In this document: piece by piece, positions 16,687 to 63,405 of the stretch
Position numbering within the stretch: position 1 is the stretch's first letter
How the letters are laid out: each line of letters begins with the position of its first letter
DNA from: a virus
Direction: 5' to 3' (one strand)
Length of the DNA: 64,000 nucleotides
IMG/VR virus record: IMGVR_UViG_3300048625_000156
Span: 30,808-94,807 of that record
Translations under genes and position numbers: made by a program
The notes under the pieces: generated by a model
Database searches by the model: none
The model's input: only the letters and a program-made list of their open reading frames with translations
What the model was told of the DNA's origin: nothing

Positions 16687-19600
16687 TACGTCACCTCACT
16701 TAAATGAACGACCATTGTTGGTCCGCTTCCGTTTCTATTGTACTCAATTGAGTATACTACATATCGTGATTCATCCGATTCTGACACCTGGCTAATTCCA
16801 TGTTCGTCATACTTAATCTTAACAATGTCTCCAAGTTGTAAAGTTGGTGTTGAGAAGATTTCCAAACCAACTGCTTTTCGTGGTTGCATAACTTTGGATA
16901 CAAGCCAGCCCATCATATCCTCTGCAGCACCTTGTGATTGAATGTACGGAGTCTCAATTGTGAACTCTTTGTTTCCATATGTCAATCTATTCTTTTTAAT
17001 ATCAGAGTAGGCTTTTTCATACTTCTTACTATACACCTGATTATTACGGTAGTCAGGATCTGAGAGGTTTCCCTGATCCGTAAAGAACTCGTCTACGGTA
17101 TAGTCGTGCTTTGAGTTTTGTGTAAACGTTACTCCCTGAATTCTTAAATAGTTTCCACTACCACTATCCAAGCTAAGAACTGTATCGGTAGTGTTAAAGA
17201 TTAGGAACTCCGCACCGAAGGCATTTGCTGTAAACCCAGATACAGCATAGCCCTGGTTGTTGTTAAACGTTGGAGAAATCTTTGCAAACAGTGCAGGGTA
17301 CGCTTTGTCGTACTTAATGTTAAAGTAAGCCATCTCCCTCATAATGGTTCCAAACTCTTCAAAATAAATATTGTATTCTGGCTTACCGACACCAGCATTT
17401 ACACCAGTCAAGAACGTGGACTTGATGGCTCCGCTAAGTGCAAACTTGTTCATAGATGTTGATGCTGTGGTGTTGTCCATTCCAAAGACGTTTGCTACTG
17501 GAGCGTTCACAAGAGATGATGGGTTAACTTCGGCGTTGGTCGCAAGAGCAGAAACGTTTTCGAACATAATTCTAGATGATCCACGAGTAAAGAGTGCAAT
17601 GTTGTTGTGTTTGTTCAGTGGGTCTGCATCTACAACTGAGCCAACAAGGCTTCCATTTAGGTACATGAAGAACTTGACTCCAGTACCAGACTTCTGATAT
17701 TCTACGCTAATGTCGTAAACGGTTGGATTCTTTTCGTTAACCATTCTGCTTTGACCAGTAAATCTTCCATCGTCAACCAGGATTGGAGCCATGCCACTCC
17801 ATAGAACAATTGGAACAGCCAAACCATCACTAGGTCGTGATTGGATTTTGTAAAAGAAAATTGTGTTAATTGCAGACGCAGTAGCAGTATATGCTTTTGA
17901 CTCTGTATCCGTTAATGCTACAATTTCATAGTAGTATCCTGCGTTAGTTGTTGGGTCTACCCAAATTCCGATACCGCCAGATGATCCACCAACGTTTACA
18001 GCCTTACCTTGGTCGTCTTGCACGGAATAGTATGGCATACTTCCAACAGGAGTTTGAGTCCTTGATTGCTGATTTTCCATTGAGCCAACGACCCTCATAC
18101 GAGTTGAGTAGTGAACAAACCTATTGTCAAGAGGTGTTGGATTGGTTACATACTGGATGTAGTCTTGCGGATTTACCGTTGATGGATATGTTGGTCCATC
18201 CAGAATGAGTGCTGAGCTTTGTACGGTTCCAGGAGTTGTAGCATTCTTCTTGTTTGTCTGAGTCTCCGTAATCTCTTTTGAGCTTAGGTAGTTCTTCATA
18301 ATTCCGCTTGCAGTAGCTGTCTTTACGCTGTGCCAGTCAGTTAGAACACCTGCAGCAACATTCTGATATGTAATGCCTGTATTTCCTCCGTTAAACATTA
18401 GAGTTGAAACCATCTTGCATTTCTTGACTCGCTTTTCATCTGTCCATCCAGACGAAAGTCCTGCTTGGTGCTCTACAATCGATGTTCCAAACTGACCACG
18501 ACCATGCTTAGCAACCTTTCCATTCTTAAGGGTATTTGCGGTAGCATCATAGTACGGCTCTGAGTAAATCCTTACCAGTCCTGTTGGATACATCTTTCCA
18601 CCAAAAGGCATTGTTGCAAAGTATTTTTGATACTCCTCTGGGCTTGAGATCCAAACGTTTCCATCTGTTAGAGTGCTGTACTGAACAGCATCAAACTTAA
18701 TAATTTCTCCGTTGGCATAGAAGTAACCGTTGTATCTTGATAGCCAGTAGACAGCCTCCCCAAGATCCATTGTGTTATTGACAACAACGCCGTTCTCAAC
18801 AAATGGGATGTCGGAGGATAGGGTCGTGTCTAGTGGAATTGCTGCAAGCGTGTAGGAAGACTGCTTTCCAGACTCATCGTTCCAAGCCTTTGTGTTCTCT
18901 CCTGGTGATACCTCCCACAGTAAGACTGGTTTGTATACCCAAGTTTTTTCTGCGTCCAGCACATTTGCCTGTGAGAGTGAGCTGTAAGACCTTTGAATAT
19001 ACTTGGTTTCATATGTAATCTTTCCACTGTTGTGAACGTCATCAGATTGTGACTCTAGCTGTGCAATATTGGTAAGGTGTACCTGATTGTCAATGATTTC
19101 GTTTTCTCCACGAAGAGTCATCGACGTTGCTCGCTCCGTCTCGCTTGGCATCATGTATTCTTTTGTCATTAGGACTAGGTTATTTGTTTCGTCAAAGAAC
19201 ATTGCTGTCTGTGTAGATACCGCAAGGTCATTCAGCACCTGACCGATTGTGGTGTTTGGACCAACGATAAAGTATGGGATAACTGGCTCTTGCTGTCCAA
19301 TTCTTCTAAATGTATAGTTAGAAAAACCAATAGAGTCAAGTAGGCAGGAGACAGCCATGCTAAGTGAGCAGTTCGGAATAATTAGCTCTGGAGCCTTCAT
19401 CTTTTCTAGGTGGAAGAATAGATCACGAACCTTTACGGAGACGTGCTTAGATGAAGCACTTGTCTCTGGAAAACTTTCTGCATATAAAGTTTTGATTGGA
19501 ACATGATAAACCATTCCGTTATCTGGGTAGATTGATTCATAAAACTTAACCTGCAAGTTCTTTGTTTGAAGATAGCTAATAAGACTATCTGGGTTATTTG

Positions 19601-55183: not shown

Positions 55184-55248
55184 GGACACTACACACCCCC
55201 CTAATGTTATCATTTTGTTACCAAACTAACGGCGTGTCGATTTGATAA

Positions 55249-55271
55249 ATGTCTGTGCCTGTGCTTATAAT
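55249..55271 (+). promoter_or_regulatory. ATGTC-box promoter 1
   Basis: ATGTCTGTGC at 55249 and TATAAT at 55266. A GTGTCG copy lies 15 bases before the box. TTGATA overlaps its upstream flank, so this copy may also have a normal -35 (18-bp spacer). Confidence 0.7.
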
Positions 55272-55296
55272 AGAGGTATAAAGAAAGGAAAAATAA

Positions 55297-55470
55297 ATGT
55301 TCGAATTCAACACAGTAATCATCACCAAGCGAGGTTCTCGTGAGGCAGGTGTATCGTTCTCTGTTCACACATTCAAGGCTACTACCGAGGCAGAGGTAAA
55401 GGCTATTGTTAGCCACCCCTCAATAGCAGGGTGGAAGTATGGATACAGCATTGGCTACGCTAAGATGTAG
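55297..55470 (+). CDS. 57-residue hypothetical protein
   Basis: A compact alpha/beta protein (NTVIITKRGSREAGVSFSVH, then EAEVKAIVSHPS). A good AAAGGAAA ribosome site precedes it. First gene driven by the ATGTC-box promoters. Function unknown. Confidence 0.6.
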   Translation: MFEFNTVIITKRGSREAGVSFSVHTFKATTEAEVKAIVSHPSIAGWKYGYSIGYAKM

Positions 55471-55474
55471 TTAG

Positions 55475-55497
55475 ATGTCTGCCCCTACTGATACAAT
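55475..55497 (+). promoter_or_regulatory. ATGTC-box promoter 2
   Basis: ATGTCTGCCC at 55475, TACAAT at 55492. It begins 4 bases after the previous stop codon. Confidence 0.6.
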
Positions 55498-55518
55498 CAA
55501 ACTAACAAAAGGAAAATA

Positions 55519-55641
55519 ATGACTACTGCTGAAATGAAACTACGCTATAACGAACTTATGCGAATTGCTAAGTCTGGTGACTATATGTCTATGGCTGAGT
55601 TTGAAGAGTTACTTGCCCTTAGTAAAAAGTTGAAGAAGTGA
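55519..55641 (+). CDS. 40-residue protein, paralogue A
   Basis: Helical, with KLRYNELMRIAKSGDYMS and AEFEELLAL. A close relative is encoded at 56202-56324. AAAGGAAA ribosome site. The conserved GDYMS-x-AEF core suggests a small two-helix fold; function unknown. Confidence 0.6.
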   Translation: MTTAEMKLRYNELMRIAKSGDYMSMAEFEELLALSKKLKK

Positions 55642-55722
55642 TTTGACTTCCCCCAGGAAATCTGGTCGGCAAAAATAACGTTTTGGTAACAAACAGTAAG
55701 AAACGCACTAAATGTCCCTAAA

Positions 55723-55745
55723 ATGTCGTAGGGTCATGTTAGACT
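55723..55745 (+). promoter_or_regulatory. ATGTC-box promoter 3
   Basis: ATGTCGTAGG at 55723, TAGACT at 55740. GGTCGGC and GGTAACA elements lie 40-60 bases upstream. Confidence 0.55.
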
Positions 55746-55775
55746 GTTAGCAACAACAAAGGATAGGAAATAGAA

Positions 55776-55859
55776 ATGAACGAGAAAACCCTAAAGGCTA
55801 TGATGGCTCAGATTGTTCGTGAGAACGCTAAGAAGATTGAAGAAGAAAAGAAAAAGTAA
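55776..55859 (+). CDS. 27-residue basic helical peptide
   Basis: MNEKTLKAMMAQIVRENAKK then a Glu/Lys end. It has AAAGGATAGG upstream and its own ATGTC-box promoter, which supports expression despite its size. Confidence 0.45.
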   Translation: MNEKTLKAMMAQIVRENAKKIEEEKKK

Positions 55860-55879
55860 CGGCGTGTCGATACCGTTAA

Positions 55880-55902
55880 ATGTCAGACCCTCGTGCTAAA
55901 AT
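55880..55902 (+). promoter_or_regulatory. ATGTC-box promoter 4
   Basis: ATGTCAGACC at 55880, TAAAAT at 55897; GTGTCG 16 bases before the box. Confidence 0.6.
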
Positions 55903-55930
55903 AAACTAACAAACAAACAAAGGACACTAA

Positions 55931-56131
55931 ATGAAAATCTCAAAGACTGCTCGCCAGAACTACATTCTTCTTGCCCTCGCTGGTATCTTCTTCTTGCTCG
56001 CTAAGGGTGGCGTTGATGACATTGCCAAGAATGGCGTTGAGGGCTTCGGTATCTTCTTCGTAATGATTGGTGGCTTGGCTATGGTTTGCTTCCTCATTGC
56101 CCTAATCGTTCGTATCTGGGACGCTGAGTAA
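55931..56131 (+). CDS. small membrane protein
   Basis: A 66-residue protein with two transmembrane segments (ILLALAGIFFLLA and FFVMIGGLAMVCFLIALIV), separated by a short polar loop with GVDDIAKNG. AAAGGACAC ribosome site. Possibly an inner membrane early protein; holin function cannot be excluded. Confidence 0.6.
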   Translation: MKISKTARQNYILLALAGIFFLLAKGGVDDIAKNGVEGFGIFFVMIGGLAMVCFLIALIVRIWDAE

Positions 56132-56154
56132 ATGTCAGTGGTACTTGGTACACT
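56132..56154 (+). promoter_or_regulatory. ATGTC-box promoter 5
   Basis: ATGTCAGTGG at 56132, TACACT at 56149. The box starts right after the previous stop codon. Confidence 0.5.
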
Positions 56155-56191
56155 TATCCTATTAGTACTCTTCATGTTGATAAACCAGTAA
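56132..56191 (+). CDS. possible 19-residue membrane peptide
   Basis: Its ATG is the ATG of promoter box 5 and it encodes one hydrophobic helix, MSVVLGTLILLVLFMLINQ. No ribosome site, but the start abuts the previous stop, so reinitiation is possible. It may be a coincidence of the box sequence. Confidence 0.25.
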   Translation: MSVVLGTLILLVLFMLINQ

Positions 56192-56201
56192 AGGAAAAAG
56201 A

Positions 56202-56324
56202 ATGTCAGTAGAACAGAAACTTAGAATGAAAGAACTTATGTGGATTGCTCGTGAGGGTGACTACATGAGCCAAGCAGAGTTTGATGAACTCTCTATGCTA
56301 ATCAAGATGAATGACTATAAGTAG
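56202..56324 (+). CDS. 40-residue protein, paralogue B
   Basis: MSVEQKLRMKELMWIAREGD then YMSQAEFDELSML; about two thirds identical over its core to the 55519 product. AAAGGAAA ribosome site. A tandem duplication separated by two other genes. Confidence 0.6.
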   Translation: MSVEQKLRMKELMWIAREGDYMSQAEFDELSMLIKMNDYK

Positions 56325-56343
56325 TCTAATCACTTTTCTTGGG

Positions 56344-56437
56344 CGTGTCGCTTGACATTCCCTTGAAAAAGTGCCGACCAAAATTTTTGATCTTTGTCAA
56401 GCTTATTTTGGTAACAATTTCGTTATAATTATTTTCC
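56344..56437 (+). repeat. intergenic module copy 1
   Basis: Order: GTGTCG, CTTGACA, GCCGACC, TTTGTCAAGCTT, TAACAATTTCGTTATAA. The same order recurs at 56927-57020. CTTGACA and TGTCAAG are inverted copies 36 bases apart. Confidence 0.65.
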
Positions 56438-56462
56438 CAAAACACCCCAAAATGTCCATAAA

Positions 56463-56485
56463 ATGTCGTAGGTGCGTGTTAGTAT
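56463..56485 (+). promoter_or_regulatory. ATGTC-box promoter 6
   Basis: ATGTCGTAGG at 56463, TAGTAT at 56480. Confidence 0.55.
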
Positions 56486-56514
56486 ATATACATAACAAAG
56501 AAATGAGAAATGAA

Positions 56515-56724
56515 ATGAACAACCTTCCAAAACTAATCGAAGCAAAAATTGACGCTTGGTCTTCTGTCTTCTCTGATGACGCTTCGTGTGTCAAGCGTGA
56601 TAATGACTACTACAACTCTCTAATCGCTAGTCAGTCAGAATACACTGATGAAGAAGTTTCTGCCTTTGCCAGCCAACTTTGGAATGGTGAAAAGACTAGG
56701 GCAGAACTTAGAATGTCTGCCTAA
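56515..56724 (+). CDS. 69-residue hypothetical protein
   Basis: A helical, acidic protein (LIEAKIDAWSSVFSDDAS, then TDEEVSAFASQLWNG). Start 56515 is chosen because the AATGAGAAA ribosome-site segment, shared with two later genes, lies just before it; the frame is open further upstream. Unknown function. Confidence 0.55.
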   Translation: MNNLPKLIEAKIDAWSSVFSDDASCVKRDNDYYNSLIASQSEYTDEEVSAFASQLWNGEKTRAELRMSA

Positions 56725-56727
56725 TCA

Positions 56728-56750
56728 ATGTCAGTGGCTACTGATAAACT
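56728..56750 (+). promoter_or_regulatory. ATGTC-box promoter 7
   Basis: ATGTCAGTGG at 56728, TAAACT at 56745; 4 bases after the previous stop. Confidence 0.5.
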
Positions 56751-56778
56751 TATAACAACAAAAGAAATGAGAAATAAA

Positions 56779-56922
56779 ATGGAAAAACTAGTTTGTGTAT
56801 TTTGCGAAAACATCTATGAGGCAGGAACATTCGTCTGCCCTGAGTGTAACGAATACAAAGGAATGATGACTATCACTGACGCTTCTAAGGAGTATGACTT
56901 CTTAGAGTATCTAACCGAGTAA
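56779..56922 (+). CDS. 47-residue zinc-ribbon protein
   Basis: CVFC and CPEC, spaced by 10 residues, form a single zinc ribbon; the tail is acidic. Start 56779 follows the shared GAGAAATAAA segment. An upstream in-frame ATG belongs to promoter box 7 and is not used as start here. Confidence 0.6.
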   Translation: MEKLVCVFCENIYEAGTFVCPECNEYKGMMTITDASKEYDFLEYLTE

Positions 56923-56926
56923 TCGG

Positions 56927-57020
56927 TGTGTCGGCTTGACAGCTGCCCCGAAATCTGGTCGGCAAATTTTTTGGCTTTTGTCAAGCTTTTTAGATAACAA
57001 TTTCGTTATAAAAACTTTTC
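56927..57020 (+). repeat. intergenic module copy 2
   Basis: Same order of elements as copy 1, with the heptamer inverted (GGTCGGC). CTTGACA at 56935 and TTGTCAAG at 56978 are inverted copies. Confidence 0.65.
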
Positions 57021-57045
57021 AGTTTTACGGCGTGTCGGTTATAAA

Positions 57046-57068
57046 ATGTCGGTGGGTGGGTGTATACT
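57046..57068 (+). promoter_or_regulatory. ATGTC-box promoter 8
   Basis: ATGTCGGTGG at 57046, TATACT at 57063; GTGTCG 14 bases before the box. Confidence 0.65.
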
Positions 57069-57094
57069 GATAGTATCAAAAGAAATGAGAAATA

Positions 57095-57253
57095 ATGTAT
57101 CCAGATAAAGACCTAACCCCTTGTGAAAAGTGTGGCTCGCTTGGCAAAGTTGTAGTAGACATTTGGAGCGTTCCGTTTTTTGCTCACAAAGTCCCTAGCA
57201 CTCGTATCGCAGGATACTTCACTTTTGTTAGCGAATGCGTTACCAAATCGTAA
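57095..57253 (+). CDS. 52-residue protein with CxxC
   Basis: CEKC near residue 10 and a further Cys near the end, separated by a beta-rich aromatic stretch (VVVDIWSVPFFAHKV). Likely a small zinc protein. Start follows the shared GAGAAATA segment. Confidence 0.5.
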   Translation: MYPDKDLTPCEKCGSLGKVVVDIWSVPFFAHKVPSTRIAGYFTFVSECVTKS

Positions 57254-57291
57254 TAAAAAACTTTTCACGCTACGGCGTGTCGCAGGGTTAA

Positions 57292-57314
57292 ATGTCAGAC
57301 CCCCCCTGTATAAT
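57292..57314 (+). promoter_or_regulatory. ATGTC-box promoter 9
   Basis: ATGTCAGACC at 57292, TATAAT at 57309; GTGTCG 15 bases before the box. Confidence 0.7.
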
Positions 57315-57344
57315 AGAGGTATAACAACAAAACAGAGATACTGA

Positions 57345-57398
57345 ATGAGCCTAGCAGGTGTGAGCCTCGCAAGAGCAAATAAAACCCCTAGCAAATAA
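57345..57398 (+). CDS. possible 17-residue leader peptide
   Basis: MSLAGVSLARANKTPSK, with weak AGAGAT before the ATG. It lies in the leader of the 57434 gene. It may regulate that gene or be chance. Confidence 0.22.
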   Translation: MSLAGVSLARANKTPSK

Positions 57399-57433
57399 GT
57401 CAGTATCAACCCTAATAAAGAAAAGAGAAATAA

Positions 57434-57664
57434 ATGGAAATCGGAACCAAAATCAAGACTCACGACAACGGCTACTTTGGCAAGATTGTGTCGCTTGACC
57501 CTATCCGCTTGGGCGTAGTTGCTCAAATCAAGAACAACGTCTTTGGCAAGTCATACATTGCCCTTGCTGCTGAACTTGACGAAACTAGCGACAGCCCAAA
57601 GGGTTTCACTACTATCGTTGCTGAAAATGTTGAGGCACTTCAGGCTCGCTACGCAGTAGCCTAA
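57434..57664 (+). CDS. 76-residue SH3-like hypothetical protein
   Basis: A beta-rich protein (IGTKIKTHDNGYFGKIVSLD, RLGVVAQIKNN) followed by a helix (AENVEALQARYA). The fold pattern suggests a small SH3/KOW barrel. AAAGAGAAA precedes the start. Function unknown. Confidence 0.6.
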   Translation: MEIGTKIKTHDNGYFGKIVSLDPIRLGVVAQIKNNVFGKSYIALAAELDETSDSPKGFTTIVAENVEALQARYAVA

Positions 57665-57673
57665 TGAGGATGA

Positions 57674-57699
57674 GGGGGGTAGTTATCCACAGCTACCCC
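57674..57699 (+). terminator. hairpin containing a DnaA box in its loop
   Basis: GGGGGGTAG and CTACCCCCC form a perfect 9-bp stem with a 10-base loop made of a DnaA box. No T-run follows, so it may be structural rather than a terminator. Confidence 0.45.
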
Positions 57700-57713
57700 C
57701 CAAGTTATCCACA
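57683..57713 (+). promoter_or_regulatory. two DnaA boxes
   Basis: Perfect TTATCCACA at 57683-57691 and 57705-57713, same orientation, 22 bases start to start, about two helical turns. Confidence 0.6.
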
Positions 57714-57794
57714 GGGAGCCGACCAGGATCGAACAAACGTTCGAATGTAACAGTTTGGTAACATCGTTAAGAAACACCCCATAATCTCCCTAAA

Positions 57795-57817
57795 ATGTCC
57801 TACCCCCCTGCTACAAT
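57795..57817 (+). promoter_or_regulatory. ATGTC-box promoter 10
   Basis: ATGTCCTACC at 57795, TACAAT at 57812. Confidence 0.65.
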
Positions 57818-57846
57818 AGAACTATCAACAAAGAAAGGGCAACTAA

Positions 57847-57978
57847 ATGCCAAAGTCACGATACACACTATTTGAATACACGATGAACGGTCAGCAGGTT
57901 GTTTCTGCTATCCACGTCTATGACCTTGGGTCATTCCTGCGTGAACACCCAGAGGCTAAGGTCAAGGTGACTAAGTGA
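57847..57978 (+). CDS. 43-residue hypothetical protein
   Basis: MPKSRYTLFEYTMNGQQVVS then AIHVYDLGSFLREHPEAKV; beta-hairpin plus helix. AAAGGGCAAC ribosome site. Overlaps the next gene by GTGA. Confidence 0.55.
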   Translation: MPKSRYTLFEYTMNGQQVVSAIHVYDLGSFLREHPEAKVKVTK

Positions 57979-58103
57979 GAACTATTGAAATCGTTACCCC
58001 AGAGGGTAAAAGTCAAATCCTGGAATACACTGACGGCAACCTGAAATGGGCTAAGAAACTATTTGCTAACGGCTTTCTTCAGTCTTGGGAAATCTTAGAA
58101 TAG
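57975..58103 (+). CDS. 42-residue hypothetical protein, GTG start
   Basis: RTIEIVTPEGKSQILEYTDG then a helix and LQSWEILE. Its GTG overlaps the previous stop. Both proteins look like small relatives of one ferredoxin-like half fold; unknown function. Confidence 0.5.
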   Translation: MRTIEIVTPEGKSQILEYTDGNLKWAKKLFANGFLQSWEILE

Positions 58104-58133
58104 TTATCCACAGGATGGCGAAAGTTATCCACA
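58104..58133 (+). promoter_or_regulatory. two DnaA boxes
   Basis: Perfect TTATCCACA at 58104-58112 and 58125-58133, 21 bases start to start, directly after the stop codon. Same orientation as the pair at 57683. Confidence 0.6.
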
Positions 58134-58224
58134 GGTGGTCGGCGGTTTTCGATCTGGATCAGGTTACGAGAGCATTAAAAAATCTCCCAGAAATTCCCAG
58201 AAAGTTACGGCGTGTCTCCCTATA

Positions 58225-58247
58225 ATGTCGGTGGTTACCTGTATAAT
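58225..58247 (+). promoter_or_regulatory. ATGTC-box promoter 11
   Basis: ATGTCGGTGG at 58225, TATAAT at 58242; GTGTC 13 bases before the box. Confidence 0.75.
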
Positions 58248-58272
58248 AGAACTATCAAACAAAGGACAGACA

Positions 58273-58461
58273 ATGAACGAAATGGAAATCAAACTCTACG
58301 ACCTAATGGCACAGGTTGAGGCTAACAAGGGTGGCGATAACGAACAGGCAATGGAAGACATTGGCAACATTCTCACCCTGCTAGAAGTTTTCCACTGGGA
58401 AGACTACAAGCGAATTGTAATCGCTAAATTCAATGTCCCTGCTGACCACTTCGAAGACTAA
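58273..58461 (+). CDS. 62-residue hypothetical protein
   Basis: An acidic, helical protein (EIKLYDLMAQVEANKGGDNE, then GNILTLLEVFHWEDY). The start follows AAAGGACAG; the frame extends upstream through the promoter, which is not coding. Unknown function. Confidence 0.55.
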   Translation: MNEMEIKLYDLMAQVEANKGGDNEQAMEDIGNILTLLEVFHWEDYKRIVIAKFNVPADHFED

Positions 58462-58462
58462 A

Positions 58463-58485
58463 ATGTCGGTGGCTCAGGGTATAAT
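58463..58485 (+). promoter_or_regulatory. ATGTC-box promoter 12
   Basis: ATGTCGGTGG at 58463, TATAAT at 58480; the box begins 2 bases after the previous stop. Confidence 0.72.
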
Positions 58486-58510
58486 AGAAACATCAACGAA
58501 AGGTAAACTA

Positions 58511-58675
58511 ATGGAATACGGAAAACTGGCAGAACTCGCAAAGATTGTTTTTGGCTATGAAACTATCGAACAGGCAGAAGTTGCTGTTGGCAAACTGCTT
58601 TACTCAGGGTCTAGCGACCAGCAAATCACTCGTCTTGCTGACTTGCTTATCGAAACCATCAAGGAGAATAACTAA
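58511..58675 (+). CDS. 54-residue hypothetical protein
   Basis: Helical protein (KLAELAKIVFGYETIEQAEV, then DQQITRLADLLIETI). Start 58511 follows AAAGGTAAAC. Coupled to the next gene by TAATGATG. Unknown function. Confidence 0.55.
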   Translation: MEYGKLAELAKIVFGYETIEQAEVAVGKLLYSGSSDQQITRLADLLIETIKENN

Positions 58676-58869
58676 TGATGACCCGAAAAGACTATGTTGA
58701 AACTGCTCGCATTCTAGCAGGTTTTAGAGAAGACTTGCTATCTATTGGCGATAAGGGTGAGCATATTTTCACTTGTCTAATCGCTGAGTTTGCTGAAATG
58801 TTTGAGAACGACAATGAGCGTTTTCAGGGAGACCGATTTGACGACGCTTGCTGGGAGGGTGGGGAGTAA
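58675..58869 (+). CDS. 64-residue hypothetical protein
   Basis: Helical, acidic, with DYVETARILAGFREDLLSIG and DRFDDACWEGGE at the end. Two ATGs in tandem follow GGAGAA; either may be used. The pattern resembles small phage proteins of unknown role. Confidence 0.55.
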   Translation: MMTRKDYVETARILAGFREDLLSIGDKGEHIFTCLIAEFAEMFENDNERFQGDRFDDACWEGGE

Positions 58870-58895
58870 TCCCCTGCCCCCTGGGGTCGGCAGCC

Positions 58896-58904
58896 TGTGG
58901 ATAA
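58896..58904 (-). promoter_or_regulatory. DnaA box
   Basis: TGTGGATAA on the plus strand, a perfect box in opposite orientation to the four upstream copies. Confidence 0.55.
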
Positions 58905-58940
58905 CTATTTATGAAGATCCATTTAAGATCCCCAGATTAA

Positions 58941-58963
58941 ATGTCGGTGGCTTGATGTATAAT
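58941..58963 (+). promoter_or_regulatory. ATGTC-box promoter 13, leaderless
   Basis: ATGTCGGTGG at 58941, TATAAT at 58958, and the start codon only 6 bases later. Confidence 0.72.
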
Positions 58964-58969
58964 AAGACT

Positions 58970-59140
58970 ATGAAGAAAAGAACTAAGCCAATAAACAATG
59001 TAAACGAAGCAACTCGCAAGGCTCACTCTGCCGAGTTATTTAAGAGTTTGCTACTCACTAAGCACACCGTTGTTGTTCCCGAACACCGCAAGGGAACAAG
59101 GCAGTCTAACATTCGTAAGGCTATCAACGAATCGCTATAA
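58970..59140 (+). CDS. 56-residue basic protein, leaderless
   Basis: Basic helical protein (MKKRTKPINNVNEATRKAHS) ending HRKGTRQSNIRKAINESL. The ATG 6 bases after TATAAT and absence of a ribosome site mean a leaderless mRNA. Upstream frames would read through the promoter. Possible nucleic acid binding. Confidence 0.55.
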   Translation: MKKRTKPINNVNEATRKAHSAELFKSLLLTKHTVVVPEHRKGTRQSNIRKAINESL

Positions 59141-59162
59141 TGTCTGACCCCAATGCTATAAT
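59140..59162 (+). promoter_or_regulatory. ATGTC-box promoter 14
   Basis: ATGTCTGACC at 59140, TATAAT at 59157; the box shares its first base with the previous stop codon. Confidence 0.68.
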
Positions 59163-59189
59163 GGTATTACCCAGAAAGAAAGGAACACT

Positions 59190-59285
59190 ATGTTCGAAAA
59201 TGTAATCAACGAACAGGCTATTGCTGACCTTACCCCTGAAGAGGCAGCACAGATAATGGACATTCTAGAGAAAGCAGGATACTAA
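59190..59285 (+). CDS. 31-residue hypothetical protein
   Basis: MFENVINEQAIADLTPEEAA then a short helix. AAAGGAACAC ribosome site; TAATG overlap with the next gene. Unknown. Confidence 0.5.
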   Translation: MFENVINEQAIADLTPEEAAQIMDILEKAGY

Positions 59286-59503
59286 TGACAGGCTACGTTA
59301 CACGTCAGACTAAGGTTGCTGAGGTTACTCGCTGGAGCGAGGACTACTCAAGTGACATCGGAACAGTATGGTCTGCCGAAAACTTTTTCGGTTTCTACAA
59401 AACCAAGTTGAACGGTAAGACTAAATACTTCAAGGGTGAGATGGCTGAGATGGACATCGAACGCATGTTTCATGATGCTGGAGATTGGAATTGCAGGATT
59501 TGA
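59285..59503 (+). CDS. 72-residue hypothetical protein
   Basis: Aromatic-rich alpha/beta protein (VTRWSEDYSSDIGTVWSAEN, KTKYFKGEMAEMD). Coupled at both ends. Unknown function. Confidence 0.55.
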   Translation: MTGYVTRQTKVAEVTRWSEDYSSDIGTVWSAENFFGFYKTKLNGKTKYFKGEMAEMDIERMFHDAGDWNCRI

Positions 59504-59661
59504 TGGATGACAGATTCGAACGCCACTTCAATCACGATATTGTTATTGCTAAGTATACTGGTCTGGATGATAAACCAGTAAATTACTCAGTCGAATGTGA
59601 AGACTGCCACGAAGTCATCATTGACGATGAAGCCTTCTTTCAACTAACTACCCCATTCTAA
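59503..59661 (+). CDS. 52-residue acidic protein with CxxC
   Basis: Starts in TGATG overlap with the previous gene. CEDC near residue 32 and an acidic, Phe-rich end. Too small for a full zinc site by itself; may dimerise. Unknown. Confidence 0.5.
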   Translation: MDDRFERHFNHDIVIAKYTGLDDKPVNYSVECEDCHEVIIDDEAFFQLTTPF

Positions 59662-59671
59662 GGAACAAACC

Positions 59672-59794
59672 ATGGACGAACAAGCAGCAGAAATTATTGA
59701 AAACCTCAATGAGTACTACGCTAACCCTCAAGACTATTCACTTCAAGACTTGGAGGACATCTTCCAAGACCGTGACCCATTCGAATTCCTTTAG
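59672..59794 (+). CDS. 40-residue acidic protein
   Basis: Very acidic helical peptide (NPQDYSLQDLEDIFQDRDPF). AAGGAACAA ribosome site. Acidic small proteins of phages sometimes mimic DNA, but there is no specific evidence here. Confidence 0.5.
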   Translation: MDEQAAEIIENLNEYYANPQDYSLQDLEDIFQDRDPFEFL

Positions 59795-59864
59795 GGGGAT
59801 TCGGTGGGGAGCCGCCGACCAGATCGGCAGCTTTCAATTACGACACGCTTACGAAATCCCTTAA

Positions 59865-59887
59865 ATGTCAGTGGTTGGATGTATAAT
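59865..59887 (+). promoter_or_regulatory. ATGTC-box promoter 15
   Basis: ATGTCAGTGG at 59865, TATAAT at 59882. Confidence 0.75.
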
Positions 59888-59912
59888 AGAGTTATCAAAG
59901 AAAGTTGGACTA

Positions 59913-60632
59913 ATGACCCTGATTCGCTCTAAAGACCGTAAAGTTGCTAACCAAGTAAACAAGGCTGGCACTCAAGCAAGTATGGCTAACACTTTTGGAC
60001 TGCCTAGTGGCAAGGCGTTTAGTTGCCCTGGTGCTACTAGCGTATGCGAAACTATTTGCTATGCTGGCAAACTTGAAAAGGTGTTCAAGGGTGTTCGTAA
60101 TGTTTTGGTTTCAAACTATGAGCAACTACTCAATGCTGACTTTACTGGCAAGACTATGCTACTGGCAGAGATGATTCAGGATTTTGTTGCTGAATGCGAA
60201 AAGCGTAATGCCGAAAAGTTATTCCGTATCCACTGGGATGGCGACTTCTTCAATGAGGAATACACTAGGGCTTGGGCAGTAGTTATTCGTATGTTCCCCG
60301 ATGTTCAATTCTGGGCATACACTCGTTCAGACTTTGCTGTTCCAATGCTAATCAACATTCCTAACCTTGCTCTCTACTTCTCTGCTGATTCTGCTAACAA
60401 AACTCTTGCTTGGGAATTGAAGCGTAAGTATGGTGTGAAACTTGCTTATCTTGCTAAAGACTTTGCTACTGGCAAGTCTGACTTCAATGAGCAACAGGAT
60501 AAGTCTGCTGTACCCTGCCCTGAAAACAATCGCAAGTTGGCTATGATTAGCGAAAAGGGTAGTGCTTGTGTTACTTGCTCGCAGTGTGTGTTTGCTCGCA
60601 ATGACATTCTGTTTAGTGCTAGTAAAAAGTAG
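59913..60632 (+). CDS. GP88-domain protein
   Basis: A 239-residue protein of the actinophage gene product 88 family. It has three N-terminal cysteines (C38, C45, C49 in FSCPGATSVCETICYAGK), a central FRIHWDGDFF (H107, D109, D111), and a C-terminal CVTCSQC. The cysteine pattern suggests a metal or iron-sulfur site, but no activity is established for the family as far as I know. Start 59913 is chosen because upstream codons are the promoter. Confidence 0.82.
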   Translation: MTLIRSKDRKVANQVNKAGTQASMANTFGLPSGKAFSCPGATSVCETICYAGKLEKVFKGVRNVLVSNYEQLLNADFTGKTMLLAEMIQDFVAECEKRNAEKLFRIHWDGDFFNEEYTRAWAVVIRMFPDVQFWAYTRSDFAVPMLINIPNLALYFSADSANKTLAWELKRKYGVKLAYLAKDFATGKSDFNEQQDKSAVPCPENNRKLAMISEKGSACVTCSQCVFARNDILFSASKK

Positions 60633-60728
60633 ATAGGCTGGCTACCCCGAAAGGGGAGCTGCCGACCACAGATCGATCCAAAAGTCAAATGTTACGATTG
60701 TGTTACGAAACCCCCTAATCACTATTAA

Positions 60729-60751
60729 ATGTCGGTGGTAGCCTGTATAAT
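60729..60751 (+). promoter_or_regulatory. ATGTC-box promoter 16
   Basis: ATGTCGGTGG at 60729, TATAAT at 60746. A second, canonical promoter follows about 100 bases later. Confidence 0.72.
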
Positions 60752-60820
60752 GGAAACATACAGCAAGAGAGACACAGCAAGAAACAGAAAATAAAAAACT
60801 AAAAAAGTTTGAGAATGTGC

Positions 60821-60849
60821 TTGACTTTTCCCTCTCAACCCTGTATAAT
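60821..60849 (+). promoter_or_regulatory. canonical promoter in tandem
   Basis: TTGACT (60821-60826), 17 bp, TATAAT (60844-60849), followed by the same AGAAGTATC start region as the ATGTC-box promoters but lacking the box. Confidence 0.75.
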
Positions 60850-60921
60850 AGAAGTATCAGCAAAAATGTTGGTATAAATAACAAGAAGCAAAGTCCTAGA
60901 AATAGGCAGAAAGGTTCGATT

Positions 60922-61077
60922 ATGTCGAACATCACTATCCCATCTGTTGGCTCGCAGTTCACTACTCAGGCAAGCAAGGTATCTGGAACTGTTCAGGAAG
61001 TTGTAATGAACAAGTCTGGTTCTGCTCGTGTTCGTCTTGATGTAAATGGACAGCCTCGCTGGACAACCATCAAGTAA
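60922..61077 (+). CDS. 51-residue conserved small protein
   Basis: MSNITIPSVGSQFTTQASKV then RVRLDVNGQPRWTTIK: a compact beta protein of a pattern I associate with many actinophages, without a known role. It has two promoters and an AGAAAGG ribosome site with a leader near 65 bases, suggesting high and early expression. Upstream in-frame codons are leader, not gene. Confidence 0.65.
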   Translation: MSNITIPSVGSQFTTQASKVSGTVQEVVMNKSGSARVRLDVNGQPRWTTIK

Positions 61078-61089
61078 TCCACTAGGTGG

Positions 61090-61122
61090 TAATCCTGAGC
61101 AAGATGAAAAACTGCTCACCAC
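61090..61122 (+). repeat. CCTGAGC hairpin family, copy A
   Basis: TGAGCA pairs with TGCTCA (61113-61118) and GTGG with CCAC outside, with a 6-base bulge. It lies behind the 60922 gene. Confidence 0.5.
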
Positions 61123-61136
61123 ACCCCCTATAATAA

Positions 61137-61159
61137 ATGTCTCACCCCCCTGCTATAAT
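61137..61159 (+). promoter_or_regulatory. ATGTC-box promoter 17
   Basis: ATGTCTCACC at 61137, TATAAT at 61154. Confidence 0.7.
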
Positions 61160-61191
61160 AGTAGGACAACCCCAAAAGAAAGAAGAACAAA

Positions 61192-61644
61192 ATGGCTCGT
61201 GCCGTATCCGTAAAAATCCCAACCGCTAAGGTCATTGAGTTGATTGAGCAGAAGATTGCCCAGATTGACCAAGATGTTGCCACCTACCCTGCTCGCAAGG
61301 CTAAGTATCAGGCAGACTACAAGGTATACACCGAAAAGGTTGTTGCCACTCTTGCTAAGTTGCTGAAACAAGATGGTTCTGCTCTTCTTGCCGAAGAGAA
61401 CACCGATAAGGGTATTCGTGTTAGCACCAACTACCGCAACGCAGTAGAAATCACCATTGGCAAGGAACTGCTGGACTTGGAAAAGCCAAAAGAGCCACAA
61501 GACCCAGAGCCAAAGGGCTACTACTCACACAACGCATACAGCACCAAGCGTGAAGAGTTGGAAAAGACCCTCCGTCTGCTTCGTATGACCGAACAGGAAA
61601 CTATCACCTCCTCAACCTACAACTCGGTTCTGGAACTGCTGTAA
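61192..61644 (+). CDS. 150-residue coiled-coil hypothetical protein
   Basis: Long helices (KVIELIEQKIAQIDQDVATY, KAKYQADYKVYTEKVVATLA), a Pro/Glu linker (KPKEPQDPEPKG) and a final helix. It resembles small phage coiled-coil proteins without known role. AAAGAAAGAAG ribosome site. Confidence 0.6.
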   Translation: MARAVSVKIPTAKVIELIEQKIAQIDQDVATYPARKAKYQADYKVYTEKVVATLAKLLKQDGSALLAEENTDKGIRVSTNYRNAVEITIGKELLDLEKPKEPQDPEPKGYYSHNAYSTKREELEKTLRLLRMTEQETITSSTYNSVLELL

Positions 61645-61665
61645 AACCATAGGCTTACGCCTAAA

Positions 61666-61694
61666 CACCTAAGCAAGTGTCTAAAAGGCTTCCC
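61666..61694 (+). repeat. CCTRAGC hairpin family, copy B
   Basis: Carries AAGC and GCTT where the other copies have GAGC and GCTC, a compensatory change. Confidence 0.5.
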
Positions 61695-61802
61695 CCATTG
61701 GGTAGAATGGTAATAGTTTGTCTGTTTGATAAAAGGATAAATAGACTTTGGCAGTAGCAAGTAAAAGGTGTTGAGGTAATACTGCTGAGTATAGACACAC
61801 CA

Positions 61803-61832
61803 CACCTGAGCAAGTGTAGTAAAAGGCTCACT
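61803..61832 (+). repeat. CCTGAGC hairpin family, copy C
   Basis: TGAGC and GCTCA arms with a 14-base loop that includes AAAAG. Confidence 0.5.
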
Positions 61833-61866
61833 AATCCCCTTGTGTAATAGCAGGGGGATTTTTCTT
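61832..61866 (+). terminator. intrinsic terminator
   Basis: AATCCCC pairs with GGGGATT around a loop of about 14 bases, then TTTCTTT follows on the plus strand. Confidence 0.75.
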
Positions 61867-61930
61867 TACCCGAAAATCGGGTCGGCAGCTCTCAAGATCC
61901 GCTTTAAGAATGTGCCAGGAAATCCCTATA

Positions 61931-61953
61931 ATGTCAGTGGTAGGCTGTATAAT
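61931..61953 (+). promoter_or_regulatory. ATGTC-box promoter 18
   Basis: ATGTCAGTGG at 61931, TATAAT at 61948. Confidence 0.75.
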
Positions 61954-61983
61954 GGAACTACAACCCAAAGAAAAGGAAAACTA

Positions 61984-62196
61984 ATGTATACATTCCACAG
62001 CCGAAAGGCTTACATCTCGGCAGATGGTTCTTACTCTGCTAATGAGGATACTATCACTTTTGATACTGATGCCCTCACAAATGAGCAATGGGAGATTGTA
62101 GATGACCTTCCAGATTCTATGAAGATGGAATACGCTATCGCTATCCTTGATGGTGATGATGACTTTGTAAACGAAATCGAAAGCGAGTATAAGTAA
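61984..62196 (+). CDS. 70-residue hypothetical protein
   Basis: Acidic alpha/beta protein (MYTFHSRKAYISADGSYSAN, EQWEIVDDLPDSMKMEYA). AAAGAAAAGG ribosome site. TAATG overlap with the next gene. Unknown function. Confidence 0.58.
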   Translation: MYTFHSRKAYISADGSYSANEDTITFDTDALTNEQWEIVDDLPDSMKMEYAIAILDGDDDFVNEIESEYK

Positions 62197-62513
62197 TGGG
62201 AGCACGAACAGTATTTGAGGTAAAAGACCGTAGTGGAAGCATTTTCCTTTATTCACATTGGGGAGGGGACACTAAGATTGAAGACGCTATTGACGCTCTC
62301 AAAAAGGCAGAGCCACGATGGCAGGATACTACCTATGGTATGCGTATCTTCATTAGCCAGATTGTTGGTGAAGCATGGAAAGATGAAACTGGCTATGGCA
62401 TTTCTGCTGGACATACCTTTGAGGAACAGTATGACCCAATGGTGATTGACTTTGAAACCAATACCGTTACTTATCTTGATGAGGACTTATCGTTCAGAGA
62501 GTTCATCAGTTAG
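62196..62513 (+). CDS. 105-residue hypothetical protein
   Basis: Alpha/beta protein with IFLYSHWGGDTKIEDAIDAL, an acidic helix and YDPMVIDFETNTVTYLDE. The pattern (a strand with HWGG then a helix) recurs in small phage proteins that I cannot name. Coupled to the gene before it. Confidence 0.6.
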   Translation: MGARTVFEVKDRSGSIFLYSHWGGDTKIEDAIDALKKAEPRWQDTTYGMRIFISQIVGEAWKDETGYGISAGHTFEEQYDPMVIDFETNTVTYLDEDLSFREFIS

Positions 62514-62536
62514 ATGTCGTAGGGTGGCTGTATAAT
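62514..62536 (+). promoter_or_regulatory. ATGTC-box promoter 19
   Basis: ATGTCGTAGG at 62514, TATAAT at 62531; it starts directly after the previous stop. Confidence 0.7.
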
Positions 62537-62560
62537 AGGACTAACAACGAAAGGAAAGCA

Positions 62561-62707
62561 ATGAGAGCATTTGAGATACTTACAGGCGAACTCGTTTTGG
62601 TTTATGCCGAAACCGAAGATGAAGCAATGGAGAAACTTGGTGAGGGTGAGTATGAGGAAATCGAAACCCTGTCAGAGGTTCAGAGAGAGTATGAGGTGGC
62701 TGAATGA
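62561..62707 (+). CDS. 48-residue acidic protein
   Basis: MRAFEILTGELVLVYAETED then an acidic helix. AAAGGAAAGC ribosome site. ATGA overlap with the next gene. Unknown. Confidence 0.52.
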   Translation: MRAFEILTGELVLVYAETEDEAMEKLGEGEYEEIETLSEVQREYEVAE

Positions 62708-62889
62708 AAACCATTGACGAACTAATCGCATTCTGTAAAGAGAACATTGCTGAGTTAGATAGTTATGTGCTTGATAACGATAGTGATAGCGAATACTTTT
62801 CAGGCGTTCAATCTGCCTATGCTCAGGTTATCCTTTTCCTTACTGGTGAAGAGATAGAGGTTCCCCAAATCCCCTACCCAGAAATGTAG
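62704..62889 (+). CDS. 61-residue acidic protein
   Basis: TIDELIAFCKENIAELDSYV, then YFSGVQSAYAQVILFL and a Pro-rich end; two helices. Unknown function. Confidence 0.52.
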   Translation: MKTIDELIAFCKENIAELDSYVLDNDSDSEYFSGVQSAYAQVILFLTGEEIEVPQIPYPEM

Positions 62890-62901
62890 GGGTGCTGGGC
62901 T

Positions 62902-62950
62902 GCCGACCCAATTGTAACGATCAGGTTACGAAGCTTACGAAACGGTTCCC
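62902..62950 (+). repeat. GCCGACC plus GTTACGAA cluster
   Basis: GCCGACC at 62902, then TAACGATC, GGTTACGAA and CTTACGAA within 40 bases, just before promoter 20. The clearest example of the shared upstream region. Confidence 0.55.
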
Positions 62951-62961
62951 CAATCCCTATA

Positions 62962-62984
62962 ATGTCAGTGGTCCACTGTATAAT
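62962..62984 (+). promoter_or_regulatory. ATGTC-box promoter 20
   Basis: ATGTCAGTGG at 62962, TATAAT at 62979. Confidence 0.75.
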
Positions 62985-63016
62985 AGAGGTATCAACAAAA
63001 AGAAAAGGAAACCCCT

Positions 63017-63382
63017 ATGAGCCGTGAACGTGGAACCCTTGTCTACAAGATGGACGAGAACGCAACCCTAGCCCTTATCCGTAACAAACTTGGTAAGCCT
63101 GACGCTGACGTAAAGCCAGACATTATGGTTGTTGCTATTGGTAAGAATGGTCCTGCTACTATCTGCCGTGAGGGTGTAGGTTGGTGGGCTGACGCTAATG
63201 GTGGTATCCCTATCAACTTCTATTCTGGTAACTATGGCTCTGGTGGCTTTGTAGATGTTACCGCCGAAGAGTTGTCTGATGTAACTACTGACGAAACTAT
63301 GGACCTTGCTGACTTCATCAACGAGTTTGGCGACCGCCTAGAAACTAACTTCTACCTTTGGCAACAATACATCAAAGGTTAG
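63017..63382 (+). CDS. 121-residue hypothetical protein
   Basis: Alpha/beta protein with ATLALIRNKLGKPDADVKPD, a Gly/aromatic centre (GVGWWADANGGIPINFYSGN) and an acidic helix. AAAAGGAAACC ribosome site. Not recognised. Confidence 0.6.
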   Translation: MSRERGTLVYKMDENATLALIRNKLGKPDADVKPDIMVVAIGKNGPATICREGVGWWADANGGIPINFYSGNYGSGGFVDVTAEELSDVTTDETMDLADFINEFGDRLETNFYLWQQYIKG

Positions 63383-63405
63383 ATGTCGTACCCCCCTGTT
63401 ATAAT
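63383..63405 (+). promoter_or_regulatory. ATGTC-box promoter 21
   Basis: ATGTCGTACC at 63383, TATAAT at 63400; directly after the previous stop. Confidence 0.7.

Follow-up and report, generated by a model that had tools for sequence, protein, structure and literature searches.

A promoter class with a spacer box at a fixed distance from the -10 hexamer in the small-gene arm of uncultured phages, probably of actinobacteria

Among described systems, the middle promoters of phage T4, in which a MotA box is combined with an AsiA-remodelled sigma-70, are the nearest working analogue of the promoters analyzed here (PMC2988021, PMC6755090). The MotA box is a 10-mer located 12 ± 1 bp upstream of the -10 hexamer, and it covers -35 to -26 when it is 13 bp away (PMC2988021). 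Its sequence is (a/t)(a/t)(a/t)TGCTTtA, and T4 middle promoters need a very good -10 (PMC2988021, PMC6755090). Co-control with a GACAC motif has been described for WhiA and WhiB (PMC3781837, PMC4850268), and the C-terminal part of WhiA contains a small helix-turn-helix domain that binds DNA (PMC3781837). In this study, a 64,000-nucleotide stretch of viral DNA, hereafter the window (positions 30,808-94,807 of the IMG/VR record IMGVR_UViG_3300048625_000156), was analyzed for a promoter class in which an ATGTC box precedes the -10 hexamer at a fixed distance. No description of this motif was found in the open-access literature. Transcription control in actinobacterial phages has been little studied, and the rigidity of the element should ease its assay.

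Box promoters in the rightward arm

All 21 ATGTC copies reported for the window in an earlier note were reproduced on the plus strand, and in each of them the -10 begins exactly 17 bases after the A. The hexamer is TATAAT in 13 copies, matches it at 5/6 positions in four and at 4/6 in the remaining four. The scan that the earlier note had suggested, for ATGTC-N12-TATAAT, returned 17 exact matches in the 94,807-base record, all forward. The background was low: the reversed control pattern gave 0 matches in the whole record, and ATGTC and TATAAT at the 30 other spacers (0 to 30) gave 2 combined. Four extra box copies were found at record positions 212, 1458, 2505, and 4850. Since a 127-bp terminal repeat makes the record circular, these copies are part of the same arm, and all 25 box promoters lie in the rightward arm. 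The leftward arm instead has canonical TTGACA-N17-TATAAT sites, and two canonical boxless promoters (window 60821; record 3062) were found inside the rightward arm.

The expected +1 base was A at 23/25 box promoters, which supports genuine transcription starts. The absence of a -35, also claimed earlier, held for the 23 of 25 promoters whose best match was merely 2-3/6, and the canonical sigma-A arrangement (TTGACA at 16-18 nucleotides (nt)) was not found at the box promoters. The claim did not hold for two of them, which reach 5/6: 55249 (TTGATA, 18-nt spacing) and record 212 (TTTACA). A TGn motif accompanies every non-TATAAT -10 of the 25 except that at 57046 (TATACT). The features of the window are as follows (window coordinates, strand, feature, with the -10 given for box promoters).

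55249-55271, +, box promoter 1, TATAAT; also TTGATA (5/6) at 18-nt spacing
55475-55497, +, box promoter 2, TGn-TACAAT
55723-55745, +, box promoter 3, TGn-TAGACT; second ATGTC at 55712, 11 nt upstream
55880-55902, +, box promoter 4, TGn-TAAAAT
56132-56154, +, box promoter 5, TGn-TACACT
56463-56485, +, box promoter 6, TGn-TAGTAT; second ATGTC at 56452, 11 nt upstream
56728-56750, +, box promoter 7, TGn-TAAACT
57046-57068, +, box promoter 8, TATACT
57292-57314, +, box promoter 9, TATAAT
57795-57817, +, box promoter 10, TGn-TACAAT
58225-58247, +, box promoter 11, TATAAT
58463-58485, +, box promoter 12, TATAAT
58941-58963, +, box promoter 13, TATAAT
59140-59162, +, box promoter 14, TATAAT
59865-59887, +, box promoter 15, TATAAT; upstream of a GP88-family gene (59913-60632)
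60729-60751, +, box promoter 16, TATAAT
60821-60849, +, boxless canonical promoter TTGACT-N17-TATAAT; nearest upstream of the 51-aa gene and a natural contrast to the box class
60922-61077, +, gene of a 51-aa SH3/Tudor-like protein, present in 15/15 long box-bearing genomes; weak candidate for the box reader
61137-61159, +, box promoter 17, TATAAT; upstream of the 150-aa gene
61192-61644, +, gene of a 150-aa protein; conserved marker used to find relatives independently of the motif
61931-61953, +, box promoter 18, TATAAT
62514-62536, +, box promoter 19, TATAAT
62962-62984, +, box promoter 20, TATAAT
63383-63405, +, box promoter 21, TATAAT

The two ATGTC pairs (55712/55723 and 56452/56463) are each exactly 11 nt apart, about one helical turn. 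Moreover, a nine-base word, GGCGTGTCG, which contains GTGTC, stands between genes at window positions 55231, 55861, 56342, 57029, and 57274.

The record carries 127 identical bases at both ends, which indicates a complete circular sequence of about 94.68 kb; this genome is smaller than those of the related Streptomyces phages of the family Stanwilliamsviridae. These phages were the nearest by TerL and portal, at approximately 49-55% identity. The two arms diverge near window 54.4 kb. The minus strand carries nearly all long genes (tail, capsid, portal, terminase, DNA polymerase, primase, and helicase), and the rightward arm, about 16 kb of small plus-strand genes, spans the record ends. A gene for a WhiB-like (Wbl) protein was identified at record 17217-17597 on the minus strand (PF02467, E 3e-12), and the four cysteines and the GVWGG turn were found in the alignment. 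Wbl genes serve as a marker for actinobacterial phages (PMC6802176); thus, an actinobacterial host is likely.

The element in related phages

To obtain an unbiased test of the spacing, 80 loci were selected as carriers of homologues of the 150-aa gene, irrespective of the motif. These loci are partly related by descent, and the counts were made without a tree. On the forward strand, 573 sites of ATGTC-N12 followed by a -10 with at least 5/6 matches to TATAAT were obtained, near-identical sites included, compared with 30 on the reverse strand and a mean of 20.1 for the remaining spacers. Near-identical sites were removed from the other pools, namely, the 619-site, -35, and 323-box pools. When ATGTC.GTGG boxes were collected without any -10 criterion, 307/323 had TANNNT at exactly 12 and 0 at 10, 11, 13, or 16, and most of the 16 remaining boxes keep a near -10 (CATAAT, TTAGAT, GATAAT) at 12. 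The same bias was observed for the other box forms, GACCC (88/99) and GAGG (51/58). In viral-contig stretches matched by the extended pattern, the pooled ATGTC-TATAAT spacing was 12 in 405 cases, and no other distance between 0 and 30 was counted more than 5 times; this result is partly circular as the pattern fixed the 12.

The anatomy of the element was determined from 619 pooled sites, selected on TGTC and a good -10. Upstream of the -10, A is conserved at 18 and 17 bases before it, followed by TGTC, any base, G (88%), T/A, G/C, G/C, and a weak T; between this T and the -10 there is little conservation, and +1 is A in 79%. The full element is AATGTC-N-G-(T/A)-(GG or CC), from about -29 to -20 when the -10 is taken as -12 to -7, and its conserved bases run 5 nt into the 12-nt gap between ATGTC and the -10. 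The earlier note, which confined conservation to ATGTC at about -29 to -25, had seen the left half only. ATGTC was found at all 21 window sites, and GTGTC is a minor variant confined to relatives. On the opposite strand, the box reads (C/T)GACAT. In the 80 loci, the arm strand carries the word GGCGTGTCG 157 times and the opposite strand 93 times; the word often precedes a box by 13-16 nt, with a register that is not fixed. At the 150-aa gene promoter of several relatives (e.g., G018 and G036), the box is enclosed in an inverted repeat rich in GC (GCAGGGGGGTTGTCAGACCCCCCTGC), which may be a terminator or cruciform that overlaps the promoter.

The extended pattern matches at least 120 viral-contig stretches, often with many copies per contig, and in 14 long relatives the boxes gather in one arm, mostly on one strand. 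One lineage (L279, L302-L307, L313) has the 150-aa gene with no box, no 51-aa gene, and a different gene neighbourhood. A second supposed box-free exception, L230, was rejected; its boxes are present with weak TGn -10s. No box promoters were found in the cultured relatives (Streptomyces Stanwilliamsviridae and Rhodococcus phages). As judged from these sequences, the element is widespread in a large group of uncultured phages, probably of actinobacteria, and the putative promoter class would extend to at least several hundred of their contigs. A regulon is thereby defined from sequence alone.

In the case of weak -10s (3-4/6), TGn was present in 93/118, compared with 28/213 promoters with perfect TATAAT (Fisher p 2e-33). 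Such a rescue of weak -10s is expected if the box and the -10, or the box and TGn, form the working unit. Lineage L230 combines box and TGn with very poor -10s (TAGGCT, TAAGCT), mostly without a -35, and these promoters would be hard for sigma alone to read. In the relatives' pool, approximately 84% of box promoters had no recognisable -35. The box keeps its 12 nt to the -10 whether a TTGAC, where one occurs, is spaced 17 nt (43 cases) or 18 nt (28 cases) from that hexamer; therefore, the partner of the box appears to be the -10-bound polymerase and not the -35. The quality of the -35 and that of the box flank, compared as a test for compensation, showed no correlation.

Reading of the box and its candidate factors

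The box is probably the site of an activator coupled to RNA polymerase, MotA-like in effect, which would define a phage-specific promoter class. We infer that a protein binds the box, that it activates transcription, and that it is made by the phage. Host RNA polymerase with its housekeeping sigma would read the -10, together with TGn where the -10 is weak, while a phage-encoded factor would bind the box within the spacer, at about -29 to -20, always in the same register relative to the polymerase. The contact between factor and polymerase would make up for the absent -35, and the whole small-gene arm would be switched together once the factor is made. The earlier note had proposed an activator that replaces the -35 for the whole arm. 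Compensation for -35 recognition across the arm is suggested because most box promoters have no -35 and very poor -10s carry both box and TGn, and the rigid coupling to the -10 fits the proposal; replacement in every case does not fit.

Several observations weigh against an activator of this kind. About 16% of box promoters in the relatives' pool, with near matches above background counted, also have a true -35, whereas an element that merely replaced the -35 would not need one and a repressor operator would permit it. Beside the boxes, 58 perfect TTGAC were counted against 0.6 expected, and a perfect TTGACA can abut the box directly upstream (TTGACAATGTCAGTGG...). Box and -35 coexist at the box promoters of the 51-aa gene (20/40) and the DUF932 gene (40/57). 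Replacement is supported at the orthologous 150-aa gene promoter, where 41 distinct sequences had the box only, 10 the -35 only, and 1 both, but this comparison scores promoters by the features compared, so that the exclusion is exaggerated. Moreover, the Wbl protein also occurs in box-free Streptomyces and Rhodococcus phages, and the box-free lineage lacks the same gene neighbourhood, which confounds the co-occurrence of box and 51-aa protein. Replacement of the -35 is accordingly usual but not obligatory, since about 16% of the promoters have a genuine TTGACA directly upstream, and a strict T4-style replacement was rejected on the same ground. For this reason, displacement of sigma region 4, which AsiA/MotA brings about, would not be required of the factor.

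If the box were instead the operator of a phage repressor, it would shut the small-gene arm at a given time by occupying the spacer of otherwise strong host-type promoters (TATAAT or TGn). Spacer operators are a common repressor design, and the perfect TTGACA that often abuts the box in relatives could let such promoters fire unaided. An operator need only overlap its promoter, however, whereas hundreds of boxes stand at exactly 12 without a single ±1 variant, and a box lacking a -10 is very rare; most box promoters also have no -35, and some of their -10s are too poor to fire unaided. Because repressor sites can do without a strict register and would be expected apart from -10s as well, an activator is favored and the repressor is considered unlikely. 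An artefact or coding signal, in which the ATG of the box is a start codon of conserved short peptides (MSVV...), would explain why some open reading frame callers would start genes there (e.g., at 59865). This was refuted by the frame test and is given almost no credence: the ATG is in frame with the next gene at 7/25, about the expected one third, the peptides mostly have a few residues to a few tens, and TATAAT and box are conserved as DNA in all frames.

Reading of the box by host machinery alone, that is, by host sigma/RNA polymerase or a host spacer-binding regulator, would account for the rigid register, which is what direct polymerase reading gives, and for TGn, which compensates weak -10s as at ordinary sigma-70-type promoters. 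The opposite strand, (C/T)GACAT, also resembles both a -35 in reverse and the WhiA site GACAC (PMC3781837). Against this stand the bacterial chromosomes. The extended motif gave 11 scattered single matches in 257 Gb of bacterial and archaeal genomes, and in 199 genomes of one bacterial phylum, 127 matches were summed by us against 113 for the reversed control. In addition, the cultured Streptomyces and Rhodococcus relatives of the phage do not use the box. Host promoters as the source of the motif were rejected on this lack of excess in the genome scan and the phylum control, and the host activator that the earlier note had left as an option is likewise disfavored. Since bacterial chromosomes show no use of the motif, a phage-made factor is likely, and reading by the host alone, for instance by a factor specific to its clade, is quite improbable. 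It is very doubtful that a sigma factor of the phage, or an alternative one, shares the TATAAT -10 and uses the box as its -35-like element. The fixed spacing would suit such a sigma, but boxless TTGACA promoters of the same genome use the same housekeeping -10, the 12-nt gap is far from the usual 16-18, and boxes occur together with TTGACA; among the conserved genes, none was noticed to be sigma-like, although no search specific to sigma factors was made.

As for the putative phage factor, the genes common to 15/15 long box-bearing genomes were a DUF932 gene, a holin-like small gene (recognized by eye), and the genes of the 51-aa and 150-aa proteins, and the Wbl gene is missing only from three contigs, which also lack the terminase region. 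The 51-aa protein was predicted as a small SH3/Tudor-like barrel (predicted local distance difference test score (pLDDT) 85), and its fold search weakly returned SH3/Tudor barrels (best E 0.04). It was found in nearly all box loci with complete neighbouring sequence and is missing from the lineage that has the 150-aa gene but no boxes; a few loci that carry it (L322 and kin) are almost without boxes. The 150-aa protein resembles, by fold search, only uncultured-phage proteins of unknown function, and sequenced phage isolates contain no relative of either protein. The 51-aa protein may tentatively be regarded as the box-reading factor, with the phage Wbl protein as helper, perhaps holding sigma region 4 alongside it. 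It is a lead only, because the neighbourhood differs in the box-free lineage and the L322 kin are nearly boxless. The Wbl protein alone was rejected as reader, as close Wbl proteins occur in box-free Streptomyces and Rhodococcus phages, where Wbl presence does not predict the promoter element. It is conceivable, though doubtful, that the 51-aa protein reads the spacer box while the Wbl protein holds, or flips, sigma region 4; this would be an actinophage sigma appropriation inside the spacer, compatible with but independent of the -35.

Comparison with described systems

MerR-family activators bind dyad sites in over-long spacers of promoters with a -35. The box resembles these sites in lying between the -35 and the -10, and differs in being asymmetric, in a normal -35 spacing of 17-18 where a -35 is present, and in the mostly missing -35. 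At extended -10 promoters, TGn-TANNNT permits initiation without a -35, and this is used here with weak -10s; unlike at those promoters, just 28 of the 213 box promoters with perfect TATAAT have TGn, and the box is therefore not simply part of an extended -10.

Wbl activators that act on sigma-A region 4, such as WhiB7 and WhiB3, are alike in the Wbl gene of the phage and the actinobacterial context, whereas WhiB7 binds AT-rich DNA upstream of the -35 and the box lies in the spacer (PMC3905903, PMC10245118). In the case of WhiA, the reverse of GACAC, GTGTC, differs from ATGTC by one base, and the GTGTC-containing word described above is frequent upstream of boxes. The boxes themselves have ATGTC in 21/21 window sites and not the exact GACAC/GTGTC, and no WhiA-like gene was noticed in the phage.

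In the case of T4 middle promoters, TGTC-N-G-T/A-GG/CC does not match the TGCTTtA of the MotA box. The earlier note had placed the box where MotA boxes sit. Its distance to the -10 does fall within the 12 ± 1 bp of MotA, but it is exactly 12 without the ±1, and the element lies at about -29 to -20, whereas the MotA box covers -35 to -26 at 13 bp and ends near -26 (PMC2988021). Moreover, poor -10s are tolerated here, as is a perfect TTGACA in about 16%. No protein resembling MotA or AsiA was noticed in family scans, which covered selected right-arm and regulatory candidates and included no MotA/AsiA profile. Both systems nevertheless share a phage-only box combined with a host -10 at a near-fixed distance, usually no -35, TGn in part of the promoters, and use across many transcription units. 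The promoter class also poses a testable question, namely, how a phage factor may let actinobacterial RNA polymerase start without a -35 by binding in the spacer.

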